IMG/VR virus record: IMGVR_UViG_3300025138_000169
Coordinates: 1-33,825 of that record
Length of the DNA: 33,825 bases
Strand: one strand, 5' to 3'
Origin: a virus
Part shown: positions 8,733 through 19,882 of the stretch, one piece after another
Layout of the letters: each line of letters opens with the position of its first letter
Position numbering within the stretch: the first letter of the stretch is position 1
Notes under the pieces: model-generated
What the model was told of the DNA's origin: nothing
The model's database searches: none
What the model saw: only the letters and a program-made list of their open reading frames with translations
Position numbers and translations under genes: made by a program

Positions 8733-11189
8733 ATGGCAAGACAAAGAATACATCAGGGTAGTTTTTTAAGAGGGGAACTTGATCCTACTATTATATCTCG
8801 TGTTGATTTATCAGCATATGGTCAAGGATTAAAGAAAGCTAGAAATGTTATTCCTATTAACCAAGGTGGTATTGAACGAAGAGGTGGTTCAGTAGCAAGG
8901 GCAGACTTAGGTGGAGCAAGTAGATTAGAAGCATTTATCTTTAATCAAAATCAAGAATATGTATTTGCATTCCAAAACCAAACATTAAAAATTTATTCTA
9001 CTAATGGAACTTTAGTAGCAACATTATCATCTTGTCCTTGGATAACAGCAGATTTGTTTGAAATGGATATGACGCAATCAGGCGACACAATGATAATTAC
9101 ACACCAAGATTTTGTACCACAAGTAATACAAAGAATAGGATCAACATCATTTACAAGAACAGCTTTTGGTTTTGAAACAAGTGTCAATGGAGAAAAAACA
9201 TATCAACCCTATTTTAAATTTGCTGATGATGATATCACATTAGATATTAACAATACATCTAAAGGTACTACTGGTGTAACATTAACTACTAATACAGCAT
9301 ACTGGACATCAGCTTATGTTGGAATGATTGTAAGATATCATGGAACAGAAATACTTATAACAGGATATACTTCTTCTACAGTTATAACAGGAACACTATT
9401 AGCTGATGTTTCTATAGAACTAGATGATGATCCTTTTAAAACTACACAAGGTTCAGGAACAGTAGAAGTTACTATGGTAGCACATGGATTTACAAATGGA
9501 GCTTCTATTACTATATCAGGTGCAGAAGATATATTTGATACAGATGGTGGTGGTTTAGCTACTGCAAACTTAAATGGTACATTTACTATTACTGTTACAG
9601 ATGATAATCATTTTACTTATACTGCTGGTGCTTCTGATACTGCAACTGAATCTGTAGATGGTGGTGGTGTTAGAGTATTAATTACAGGTCATCCACCTAC
9701 TAGAAACTGGGATGAACAAGTATTTTCTTCTATCAATGGTTTTCCTAATACAGTTACATTCCATGAACAAAGATTATTCTTTGGTGGAGTAACAGCATTA
9801 CCTGATGGATTACAAGCTAGTATGGTAGCAGACTTCTTTAACTTTGATGTAGGAGATGGAGAAGATTCTGATTCAGTACAAATACAAATAGCATCAGATC
9901 AAGTAAATGAAATAAGACATTTAATATCAGGCAAAGTATTACAGATACTTACAAGTACAGGAGAGTTTTTTTTAAAACCACAGGTATCAAAACCTATTAC
10001 ACCAACTGATATAAGAATTATAAGTCAATCTAATCTAGGTTCTCAGTTAAAAGCTAAACCAAGAATCTTTGATAATGCTACAATCTTTATACAAAACAAT
10101 GGTAAAACAGTTAGAGAGTTTTTATTTAGTGCGGCGGCAGAAGAATTTTCTTCTAATAGTATATCTCTATTATCTAATCATTTAATATCTACACCAAGTG
10201 ATACAGCTAAATTAACTTCTATAGCTGATAGAACTGAACAGTTTTATTTTGTAGTTAATTCAGATGGTACTATAGGAATCTTTACTTCTCAAAGAAATGA
10301 AAAGATAGCAGGATGGATGCAATGGAATACAGATGGAGAATATGAATCTGTAGCTTGTACAACTAATAGTATATATACAGCAGTTAAAAGAACTATTAAT
10401 GGTTCTGCTTATTATAGTTTAGAACAACAAGCATCTACTTCATTTGATGTACCTACAGATTATACAATAACTAAAACAGTATCAGGAAGTTATCAACCAC
10501 ATGGTGTACCTAAAGTAAATGGTGCTATTTCTAGTACAACTACAATGATAGCAGATGGATTTACTAATGCTCCTAGTCAAGGAGAAACATTCCAATTTGG
10601 AGGATCAGGAACTATTTATACAATACAATCTGCAACTGCTACTGGTAATAGTGGAGAGTACACAATAGTAATTAATGCATCTGTTTCTCAATCAAATAAC
10701 ACAACATTACAATTTGTTACTAGCAAAGTATTCTCAGGATTAACTACTCATGTAGGTAAAACTGTATTTGCAACTGCTGGATCAACTGAGGGTGGTGCTA
10801 TTTATTATTATGGTAGCGGTGTAGTAGATGGAAGTGGAAATGTTATTATAGATACACCAACTACAGCTTGTGATATTGGATTAAATTATAGTATTACTTT
10901 AGAAACATTACCTATAGATGCAACTATCCAAGGTGGACAATTAACAGGATTACCAAGAAAAATAGGTAAGAGTGTTATAGAATTGTCTTCAACTTATAAT
11001 GTACAAATAAATTCAAATGATGTAGTTCTAACAGAAACAACATTGAATACATCAAGTGGATTAACAAGTTTTACAGGAAAGAAAGAAGTGTACACATTAG
11101 GATATAGTTTAGAACCAAACTTAACAATTACTCAATCAGCACCTTTGCCAGTTAGAATCTTAGGTATAACTTCGGAGATATATTACTAA
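8733..11189 (+). CDS. Tail tubular protein B / nozzle, T7 gp12-like
   Basis: This 818-aa tail nozzle protein follows the gp11-like adaptor. It begins MARQRIHQGSFLRGELDPTI, then RVDLSAYGQGLKKARNVIPI and NQGGIERRGGS. That opening is typical of gp12-like nozzle proteins of marine podoviruses. The middle contains VTFHEQRLFFGGVTALPDG, another family hallmark, and the protein is mostly beta with many Thr/Ser. An extra Ig-like or beta-sandwich segment (about residues 230-310, with HGFTNGASITISGA and DDNHFTYT) looks inserted into the core, and such insertions can bind surfaces. Six copies would form the tail tube and nozzle. It ends in TAATG overlap with the next gene. Confidence 0.88.
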   Translation: MARQRIHQGSFLRGELDPTIISRVDLSAYGQGLKKARNVIPINQGGIERRGGSVARADLGGASRLEAFIFNQNQEYVFAFQNQTLKIYSTNGTLVATLSSCPWITADLFEMDMTQSGDTMIITHQDFVPQVIQRIGSTSFTRTAFGFETSVNGEKTYQPYFKFADDDITLDINNTSKGTTGVTLTTNTAYWTSAYVGMIVRYHGTEILITGYTSSTVITGTLLADVSIELDDDPFKTTQGSGTVEVTMVAHGFTNGASITISGAEDIFDTDGGGLATANLNGTFTITVTDDNHFTYTAGASDTATESVDGGGVRVLITGHPPTRNWDEQVFSSINGFPNTVTFHEQRLFFGGVTALPDGLQASMVADFFNFDVGDGEDSDSVQIQIASDQVNEIRHLISGKVLQILTSTGEFFLKPQVSKPITPTDIRIISQSNLGSQLKAKPRIFDNATIFIQNNGKTVREFLFSAAAEEFSSNSISLLSNHLISTPSDTAKLTSIADRTEQFYFVVNSDGTIGIFTSQRNEKIAGWMQWNTDGEYESVACTTNSIYTAVKRTINGSAYYSLEQQASTSFDVPTDYTITKTVSGSYQPHGVPKVNGAISSTTTMIADGFTNAPSQGETFQFGGSGTIYTIQSATATGNSGEYTIVINASVSQSNNTTLQFVTSKVFSGLTTHVGKTVFATAGSTEGGAIYYYGSGVVDGSGNVIIDTPTTACDIGLNYSITLETLPIDATIQGGQLTGLPRKIGKSVIELSSTYNVQINSNDVVLTETTLNTSSGLTSFTGKKEVYTLGYSLEPNLTITQSAPLPVRILGITSEIYY

Positions 11190-17965: not shown

Positions 17966-19882
17966 ATGACAATAGTAAGTAACAAAAATACACCTAGAAA
18001 TACATATACAGCTAGTGCAAATCAAACTAGCTTTGCTATTAGTTTTGAATTTTACCAAATAGCAGATGTTAAAGTCTATAAGAATGGTACATTATTAACT
18101 TATAATGCTACTCCATCAGGAGCATCACAATATAGTATTACAGGTACAGCTTCAGCTTCAGATAATGCATATGAATTTGGATCAGGTGGATCAATTACAC
18201 TTGGAGCAGGTGCTTCAGTTAATGACATTATAGTTATTATTAGAGATATATCTGTAGAAAGAACAACAGACTTTCCTAACTCAGGTGCATTTGATATTAC
18301 AAGTTTAAATACACAACTAGATACATTAACTTCTATTGTTGCAGATGTTAAAACACAAACAGATAGATCAGTTAAATTATTAGATACTGATACTGTTTCT
18401 GCTACAGTTACATTACCAGCTAAGGCAACTAGACAATCTAAATTAATGGGATTTGATGCTAATGGTAATATTGAAACTACAGTATCATCTGCTGGATTAA
18501 CAACTATTGCAGGACTATCTACAGAAATACAAGCCCTTGGTGCAATATCTAGTAATATTACAAGTGTTGCTGGAAATGCTAGTAATATAAATACTGTTGC
18601 TGGATTAAATTCACAAATTACAAGTTTAAGTGCTATATCATCTGATATTTCAACTCTTGCTGGTTTTAATAGTTCTGATATTTCTACAGTAGCAGGAGAT
18701 ATTGCTAAGGTAGTAACTGCCGCAAATGATTTAAATGAATCTACTTCTGAAATAGAAGTAGTAGCAGGTGCAATTACTAATATAGATGCAATAGGTGGTG
18801 CAATTACTAATATTAATAACATTGGTCCAAATATTGCTAGTGTAAATACTGTTGCATCAAATATTGCAGGAGTTAATTCTTTTGGAGAAAGATATAGAGT
18901 TCAAGCAGGAGTTCCAAGTAGTTCATTAAATGTTGGCGACTTGAATTTTGATACGACAGCTAATGAATTAAAAGTTTATAAATCTTCAGGATGGGCGGCG
19001 GCTGGTTCTACAGTTAATGGTACATCCCAACGATATGTTTATAATATTACAGGCACACCAACAACTTTAACAGGTGCATCAGGTACAGGTTATGCAGAAG
19101 CATCAAGTCAAGTTCTTGCTTATGATGCTGGATTTGTAGATGTTTATCTTAATGGTGTTAAACAAATTTTAGGAACAGATGTAACTGCTACTTCAGGTAC
19201 TTCTTTAGTATTTGCAAGTGCTTTAGCAAATGGAGATGTAGTAGATGTTGTAGGTTTTGGTACATTCCAACTAGCTAATATATCTATAAAAGATTTAACA
19301 GATACACCTAATAGTTTTGGTACAGCAGGACAAGCCCTTGTTATGAACAATTCAGCAAATGGCTTAGTATTTTCAAATGCAAGTTCAGCAGAAGTATATG
19401 GATTTAAAAAATCATTTACAGCTTCAACTCTTAATAGAACAGTTACAGTAGCATCTGTAGGTGGTTCAAATAAATATTTTATAGATGGAGTACAACAAGA
19501 TACTTTAGAATTGTTAGAGGGTAATACATATATATTTGCTTATCCATCAGGACATCCATTTAAGTTTTCTACAACTTCTGATGGTACTCATGGTAGTGGA
19601 TCAGAATATACTACAGGAGTTACACATAATTCATCTACACAAGTTACTATAATAGTAGCAACAAACGCACCTACTTTATACTATTATTGCTCATCTCACT
19701 CAGGAATGGGTGGACAAGCAAATACACCAGTACCATCTAATAATACATTACAAGTACAAACAACAAATACAGGGGCAGATAATATAAGTGAATCAGATTA
19801 TGCTGGATTTAATGATGTTCTTTTTGCGGCATCAGGATTTAGCTGGTCTATAAGTAGTGGTAAATTAATAGCTACAATTTAG
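17966..19882 (+). CDS. Tail fibre protein with T7-type N-terminus and C-terminal cupredoxin-like domain
   Basis: The 638-aa protein starts with a T7 gp17-like anchoring domain (about 1-140: NTYTASANQTSFAISFEFYQ, DVKVYKNGTLLTY, ERTTDFPNSGAFD, LNTQLDTLTSIVADVKTQTD). A repetitive Ser/Asn/Ile-rich region follows (about 180-310, repeated ISSxISTVAG/NINTVAG units), probably a coiled-coil stalk. Then come beta domains with DVYLNGVKQ and a domain at about 490-595 that resembles a blue-copper fold: NKYFIDGVQ, EGNTYIFAYPSGHPFKFS and YYYCSSHSGMGG. H530, C575, H578 and M581 match type-1 copper ligands, with the amicyanin-like spacing C-x2-H-x2-M. It presumably recognises the host surface, and copper binding is unproven. 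Confidence 0.85.
   Translation: MTIVSNKNTPRNTYTASANQTSFAISFEFYQIADVKVYKNGTLLTYNATPSGASQYSITGTASASDNAYEFGSGGSITLGAGASVNDIIVIIRDISVERTTDFPNSGAFDITSLNTQLDTLTSIVADVKTQTDRSVKLLDTDTVSATVTLPAKATRQSKLMGFDANGNIETTVSSAGLTTIAGLSTEIQALGAISSNITSVAGNASNINTVAGLNSQITSLSAISSDISTLAGFNSSDISTVAGDIAKVVTAANDLNESTSEIEVVAGAITNIDAIGGAITNINNIGPNIASVNTVASNIAGVNSFGERYRVQAGVPSSSLNVGDLNFDTTANELKVYKSSGWAAAGSTVNGTSQRYVYNITGTPTTLTGASGTGYAEASSQVLAYDAGFVDVYLNGVKQILGTDVTATSGTSLVFASALANGDVVDVVGFGTFQLANISIKDLTDTPNSFGTAGQALVMNNSANGLVFSNASSAEVYGFKKSFTASTLNRTVTVASVGGSNKYFIDGVQQDTLELLEGNTYIFAYPSGHPFKFSTTSDGTHGSGSEYTTGVTHNSSTQVTIIVATNAPTLYYYCSSHSGMGGQANTPVPSNNTLQVQTTNTGADNISESDYAGFNDVLFAASGFSWSISSGKLIATI

Follow-up and report, generated by a model that had tools for sequence, protein, structure and literature searches.

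The tail fibre encoded in a 33,825-nucleotide viral sequence (IMG/VR record IMGVR_UViG_3300025138_000169, positions 1 to 33,825; hereafter the window) carries near its C-terminus a domain that, by its predicted fold and its ligands, is a cupredoxin, a known kind of protein, with predicted copper binding. Our preferred reading, to which we assign a probability of roughly 75%, is that this is a true cupredoxin with an intact type-1 metal site, present as an optional module near the C-terminus of the tail fibre of a SAR11-type podovirus, where it would be metal-loaded and serve a stabilising or surface-contact role. The computational evidence establishes the fold, the ligand set, the loss of ligands in blocks and the modular movement of the domain. 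It is most likely a metal-loaded accessory module, probably holding copper, on the host-facing end of the virion; here we infer both the identity of the metal and the role in adsorption.

The ligand set and its conservation

The features of the fibre gene are as follows (L numbers are our handles for loci; ORF, open reading frame).

17966..19882, plus strand: tail fibre gene, 638 aa; ORF with matches to PHROG 21412 and PHROG 1640
19388..19408, plus strand: left flank AEVYGFK, common to fibres without the domain
19421..19738, plus strand: cupredoxin domain spanning residues 486-591 of the fibre, where it is an optional insert (AlphaFold2, Foldseek, VIA-align, PDB profile search, insert-free L455 and L456)
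19553..19555, plus strand: H530, N-terminal His ligand, in 211 of 212 unique full-length copies
19688..19690, plus strand: C575, Cys ligand and sole Cys of the protein, in 211 of 212
19697..19699, plus strand: H578, second His ligand, in 211 of 212
19706..19708, plus strand: M581, Met ligand, with the amicyanin-type spacing C-x2-H-x2-M, in 212 of 212
19742..19882, plus strand: conserved C-terminal stretch of the fibre that follows the domain (about 47 aa); L455 and L456 have it but lack the domain

PHROG 21412 (tail fiber protein) matches fibre residues 99-440 (3.4e-30), and PHROG 1640 (tail protein) matches residues 1-125. The initial annotation, made from the sequence, had listed four ligands, H, C, H and M, in that order at residues 530, 575, 578 and 581, and the ORF translation reads exactly so, with GHPFKFS beginning at residue 529 (nt 19550) and YYYCSSHSGMGG at residue 572 (nt 19679). 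The range it gave, 19430-19750, agrees with the domain to about 12 bases; its placement of the domain at the fibre tip holds in that the domain lies near the C-terminus, and is a slight overstatement in that about 47 residues come after it. The order and spacing of the ligand set are those of a type-1 (blue) copper protein. Each of the four His of the fibre (530, 542, 554 and 578) lies inside the domain. When the fibre was shuffled 200,000 times, C-x2-H-x2-M arose in 7 runs, and in none with a His 30-60 residues upstream.

The near invariance of the ligands in the 212 distinct full-length copies is matched at other depths of divergence. Across 65 distinct close relatives all four are invariant, with His542 in 56/65 and His554 in 37/65, and copies less than 45% identical to that of the window keep all four in 103 of 104 cases. 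With clustering at 60% (24 representatives) the ligands are among the 8 most constant of 104 columns, an outcome with a probability of about 1.5e-5 by random draw. All domain matches collected read HCHM, the four ligands in order, in 458 of 482 instances; this total includes contigs fetched more than once, and the 322 distinct sequences are the better count. Because the first viral scans used patterns that contain the ligands, a separate scan was run with residues 480-528 of the N-terminal half, which hold no ligand. It recovered 80 loci, 8 of them cut by contig ends, and the full ligand set is present in every readable one (72/72).

In 98 distinct DNA segments H530, C575 and H578 show synonymous codon variation. 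Exactly one Cys is found in 207 of the 212 distinct copies (three in 4, none in 1). Since most copies have a single Cys, its retention is not explained by a disulfide. Isolate rows read HCHM by pattern in 16 of 19; the others are a copy in the SAR11 phage Hodr, cut at the record start there but also read whole, and two overlapping rows that together make up one ACG-2014d copy, in which His and Cys are spaced further apart. A loop variant, C-x2-H-x3-M, occurs in L255 (3812-4297), where the ligand set is kept and the loop length changed; loop length varies likewise among known cupredoxins. The YYYC.SHSGMGG segments that the initial annotation had mentioned for other marine phage proteins do occur in other marine phages.

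Twenty-four of the 482 matches are not HCHM. Two of these, L166 and L444, are the same contig and read NAQM. Twelve are paired halves from a ligand-free group (L285 and L445-L449), six at the first-His position and six at the Cys position, in which E or D replaces the first His, S replaces the Cys, and the second His and the Met are absent. The remaining ten (seven with H only, two with CHM only, one with none) comprise seven cut by a contig or record end (L291, L301, L302, L303, L316, L356 and L087), a further L285 match running into a contig end, and two in L264. The first L264 copy has an atypical N-terminal half; in the second the C-terminal strands are replaced by unrelated sequence, subtilisin-type peptidase-like by eye, and no Cys-x2-His-x2-Met occurs in any forward frame in its vicinity. 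No fully read copy has lost just one or two ligands: loss has occurred in two lineages, of three ligands (L166) or of all four (L445-L449 and L285). The initial annotation had regarded free loss of single ligands among homologues as evidence against a blue-copper site, and the blue-copper reading survives this check, as losses come three or four together. Its other suggestion, a copper-free derivative, is disfavoured for the window copy and yet exists in the two other lineages, which show that the sandwich alone can be useful. The ligand-free group consists of large virion ORFs (about 1650 aa) with an insertion between the domain halves, a reuse of the fold without metal.

Predicted fold and known copper proteins

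Structure prediction and profile comparison together support a cupredoxin fold for the fibre segment, a Greek-key beta-sandwich of the plastocyanin or amicyanin kind. With an alignment of 86 phage copies (A1, from 87 representatives, L255 being left out for its long internal stretch), AlphaFold2 modelled the domain at a predicted local distance difference test (pLDDT) score of 94.2 and a predicted template-modelling score of 0.87, with 8 strands of at least 3 residues. Outside the domain the model of the fibre C-terminus is poor (pLDDT block means of 60-69 over the last 44 residues) and is little guide to the tip. Of the 12 PDB matches that Foldseek returned at E<=0.001, 10 are type-1 copper proteins (three-domain nitrite reductase, rusticyanin, and pseudoazurin both as such and with an engineered amicyanin loop) and 2 are SO1698 entries; SO1698, titled an aspartic peptidase in the PDB, stands at ranks 8 and 10. 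The top VIA-align match is the cupredoxin domain of 2dv6_A (Z 9.9, root-mean-square deviation 2.6, 93 residues), followed by two-domain laccases and rusticyanin at Z of about 9. As a Z of 9.9 is only moderately above the 7-8 that the tool flags as a possible common arrangement, sequence evidence was also counted.

That evidence required a family profile, because single-sequence searches were empty: the window copy alone matches no Pfam or NCBIfam family at cut-off and nothing relevant among PDB sequences, where the whole fibre gives weak unrelated matches only. The A1 profile finds 72 PDB sequences at E<=10 (best 1.8e-4), and copper proteins make up 59 of the 60 best of these 72. The four ligand positions of the profile (His, Cys, His and Met) each land on the matching residue of plastocyanin 1kdi; in nitrite reductase 9cck the Cys, His and Met columns align with those of the domain, and both 9cck and another copper nitrite reductase, 6hbe, have exactly the spacing C-x2-H-x2-M. 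Judged indirectly, by alignment to these copper sites, the four ligands would be expected to converge on one point, the clustering that the initial annotation had asked of a model. A second copy in Prochlorococcus phage P-SSM2, found by the window-family profile (2.6e-7), matches PDB cupredoxins directly (best 8.2e-4) and resembles Pfam Cupredoxin_1 (PF13473; 21.3 bits, E 2.8e-4, below the curated cut-off of 27) and Copper-bind (PF00127; 20.9 bits, E 4.8e-4, below the curated cut-off of 21.2). By score, then, neither the window copy, which gives no match, nor this best relative belongs to PF00127 or PF13473. The model, the fold comparisons and the profile matches to known blue copper proteins bear out the blue-copper fold that the initial annotation had proposed. 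Against viral models, Foldseek gave 61 matches at E<=0.001, with no named copper protein among the best 50 of 61. Small beta-sandwich proteins of Pithovirus and Marseillevirus relatives (BFVD A0A481Z6J5, A0A481Z7Q7 and A0A481YVH3) are fold matches as well (E 2.2e-7 to 1.3e-6).

The likeness to amicyanin, plastocyanin and pseudoazurin (PF00127) lies in the cupredoxin fold, in the order His...Cys-x2-His-x2-Met and in profile matches to all three; the loop length, C-x2-H-x2-M, is the amicyanin type and is common to amicyanin and the window domain. Those proteins are soluble electron-transfer proteins, whereas the window domain is an insert in a phage tail protein, and its sequence identity to PDB chains is about 10-21%. 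The cupredoxin domains of copper nitrite reductases (2dv6, 6tfo, 9cck and 6hbe) include the best fold match (2dv6) and the same loop (9cck and 6hbe); they differ in being enzyme domains with no relation to virions.

An optional insert that moves between tail proteins

The domain sits between AEVYGFK and the conserved fibre C-terminus of about 47 residues. Seven loci are related to this C-terminus; five have the domain, and in L455 and L456 the sequence passes from AEVYGFK directly into the C-terminus. A further scan from L455 recovered only L456 and L455's own contig again. Judged by its portal-type protein (84.9%), the closest cultured phage is EXVC031P Hodr, whose host is SAR11 HTCC1062. In Hodr the fibre homologue, gp56 (349 aa), has no copy of the domain; a domain 70% identical to that of the window is instead inserted in a PHROG-376 tail protein, gp60 (918 aa), at a site that is empty in the window, where the homologue of gp60 has 818 aa and is 73-74% identical on either side of the insertion. 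IMG/VR contig L022 has the same insertion as Hodr. The corresponding window features are:

8733..11189, plus strand: PHROG 376 tail protein (3.9e-117), which from gene order we take to be of the T7 gp12 or nozzle type
10512-10547, plus strand: empty insertion site, residues 594-605 of the PHROG 376 protein, filled in Hodr and L022 (blastp)

The same mobility is seen on a wider scale. Counting viral carriers of 200 aa or more gives 361 ORFs, contigs fetched twice included, which form 42 clusters after the domain is masked. PHROG names were obtained by scanning 27 carriers: tail fibre, tail protein, baseplate wedge, gp9-type connector, central fibre J, collagen-like tail and virion structural protein. 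Among these 27 carriers, one has no family and a few match families of unknown function alone; wherever a functional name exists, the carrier is a virion protein and in most cases belongs to the tail. The domain is an optional, mobile insert that moves between unrelated tail proteins and is met again in T7-like fibres, in baseplate connectors of T4-like cyanophages and in other proteins of the virion. Immunoglobulin-like accessory domains of phage virion proteins, a promiscuous beta-sandwich inserted in unrelated head and tail proteins, belong to another fold family and have no such metal site. In 38 records searched whole, 31 have one match and six cyanophages have 2-4; Hodr's two matches are a single copy split across the record ends, and two rows of S-RIM2 may represent the same copy. 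Isolate records with a match number 16 for the window probe, 335 for a cyanophage-type probe and 260 for a third probe, and 329 of the 335 are named Synechococcus, Prochlorococcus or cyanophage. Cultured carriers include HTVC028P, Hodr, Baldr, S-RIM2 and P-SSM2.

Some observations touch on the annotation of carriers. The last ~110 positions of phrog_677 ('baseplate wedge tail fiber protein connector'), about 300-409, are the cupredoxin domain itself, a gap in annotation through which unrelated carriers could come to be named connectors. In cyanophages the domain also occurs in virion proteins annotated as subtilisin-like (S8) peptidases (L264, L463 from S-H9-1, and ACG-2014e and ACG-2014h proteins).

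Related domains are found in cellular genomes. The scan covered 84,980 species genomes, and the best 80 of 95 confirmed loci were considered; it used a narrower alignment of 23, the alignment of all 86 being too diverse. The four ligands are present in 87 of 87 domains, which is weak evidence, as one of the two peptide patterns spans the Cys, His and Met ligands and biases the scan. Among these best 80 of 95 loci, 14 contigs of Pelagibacteraceae carry fibre-like ORFs and probably represent phage DNA within single-cell genomes. Lipoprotein-like ORFs of SAR86 and Woeseiaceae begin with a Cys-Gly-rich segment and carry the domain C-terminally. In SAR86 and other bacteria (L393-L395, L417, L419 and L431-L441) poly-Gly follows the Cys and the domain is mostly C-terminal. 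It is possible that the bacterial lipoprotein-like ORFs represent a family of marine surface cupredoxins. Marine archaea also have lipoprotein-like ORFs with the domain, two of which (L428 and L416) combine collagen repeats with a C-terminal domain copy.

Metal, role and rival explanations

Copper is the metal we favour, on two grounds: no ligand is more constant than the axial Met, and the loop matches that of copper nitrite reductases and amicyanin. Under our preferred reading, the Cys thiolate, the two His and the Met would bind copper, as Cu(I) in the cell or as Cu(II) after release, and loading may take place late or outside the cell. Once bound, the metal would make the small beta-sandwich more rigid, and at the host-facing end of the virion the loaded domain could act as a stabilising module, a surface-contact module or both in adsorption, a putative metal-dependent adhesin. 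Its placement in such varied tail proteins as the window fibre, the nozzle-type protein of Hodr and the cyanomyophage baseplate connector suggests that selection acts on a tail-borne domain and not on the fibre. Its presence in phages of SAR11, Synechococcus and Prochlorococcus disfavours a single protein receptor and favours a general role, for which stability, a common surface feature or a copper-dependent contact are candidates.

Several points weigh against this reading. The residue after the first His is Pro, whereas Asn is usual there in plastocyanin and amicyanin, so that His-Pro in the window domain stands against His-Asn in the amicyanin, plastocyanin and pseudoazurin group. Free copper in the open ocean is very low, which makes loading uncertain. 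The TM-scores that Foldseek gives against PDB chains, 0.44-0.65 by query length, are moderate values that mark the domain as a distant cupredoxin. In two lineages the fold persists without the ligands, and the metal is therefore not obligatory for the fold; the truncation in L264 speaks against a strict all-or-none rule. In many relatives no copy was detectable: a related portal is found in 26 Pelagibacter records, whereas the domain probe matched only 3 Pelagibacter records.

Zinc as the metal is the remaining counterweight. The fold and site would then be as proposed, with zinc or a mixture bound in a purely structural capacity and no copper chemistry, which we consider unlikely though a serious contender. 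Virions assemble in a reducing cytoplasm, recombinant cupredoxins often pick up zinc, and a metal would stabilise a small, exposed beta-sandwich. For metal in a phage fibre there is a precedent, the HxH iron of T4 gp37 (PMC11705849). The axial Met, however, is the most constant ligand of all (212/212). Met is a typical copper ligand and a poor one for zinc, and two copper nitrite reductases as well as amicyanin share the loop spacing. A copper-free adhesin, in which the beta-sandwich itself binds and the ligands are kept for folding or packing, fits L166 (N, A, Q, M) and L445-L449 with L285, all of which keep the fold without ligands. A packing role predicts single replacements, however, and these number 0 in fully read copies against 322 distinct HCHM sequences, while the non-ligand His542 and His554 vary freely; we judge this explanation very improbable.

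The metal might instead be central, with a copper-loaded tail docking on a copper-handling or redox protein of the host surface, or copper redox triggering irreversible adsorption. The near all-or-none retention of the site, the virion and mostly tail identity of the functionally named carriers, and the related intact-site domains in lipoprotein-like ORFs of SAR86 and marine archaea are consistent with such a role, and an iron counterpart, the Ferrojan-horse proposal, has been published (PMC12753301 and PMC11705849). Any receptor or partner would be hypothetical, and the unrelated hosts (SAR11, Synechococcus and Prochlorococcus) argue against one protein receptor; we judge this role quite improbable. 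The broader proposition, that abundant marine phages (SAR11 podoviruses and T4-like and T7-like cyanophages) share a mobile, copper-loaded blue-copper tail domain whose copper itself works in adsorption, by docking or by a redox or apo-holo switch, seems rather improbable to us. To a chance motif in a beta-rich fibre domain that is not a cupredoxin we give almost no credence. The window copy does fall below every Pfam and NCBIfam cut-off, and its single-sequence PDB search gives nothing relevant, but the shuffles, the conservation rank, the model, the fold match and the profile match all contradict it; the 200,000 shuffles and the conservation rank of the ligands led us to reject it.

Iron in phage tails was known before. 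HxH iron sites are described in the tail fibres of T4 (gp37) and alterophage R22Y, together with the Ferrojan or Trojan horse hypothesis (PMC11705849). These fibres resemble the window fibre in having a metal site in a receptor-proximal tail protein, proposed for a marine phage too; they differ in that their iron sites are described in that paper as octahedral and are made of His only, whereas here Cys, His, His and Met sit in a globular domain. With its His at 530, 542, 554 and 578, the window fibre has no HxH motif. Viral NirK, as described in PMC8115048, is a different thing from a virion cupredoxin domain. Within the open literature, a scope from which subscription journals and preprints were mostly absent, no cupredoxin domain in a virion was found. 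The same literature gave no precedent for a complete type-1 copper ligand set that is kept even where copies diverge strongly, goes missing only in blocks and has been exchanged among fibre, nozzle-type and baseplate proteins. Recognising the domain puts a name to a stretch whose annotations so far read hypothetical, virion structural or tail fibre, or which counts as part of the 'baseplate wedge tail fiber connector', and raises the idea that ocean phages carry metal at the virion end that meets the host cell. If this is true, copper joins the story of viruses and metals in the ocean. Because isolate T4-like cyanophages (335 records with one probe) and cultured SAR11 phages carry the domain, its metal content and role in infection are directly testable.

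Two minor observations complete the picture. In the fibre shaft of the window, residues ~181-312 hold short repeats rich in I(A/N)xVA and IN, where the PHROG tail-fibre profile matches. In OQ414635.1 and OQ414636.1 (L087, L088, L465 and L466) the locus tags look swapped, Hodr genes being tagged EXVC032PBaldr and those of Baldr EXVC031PHodr.
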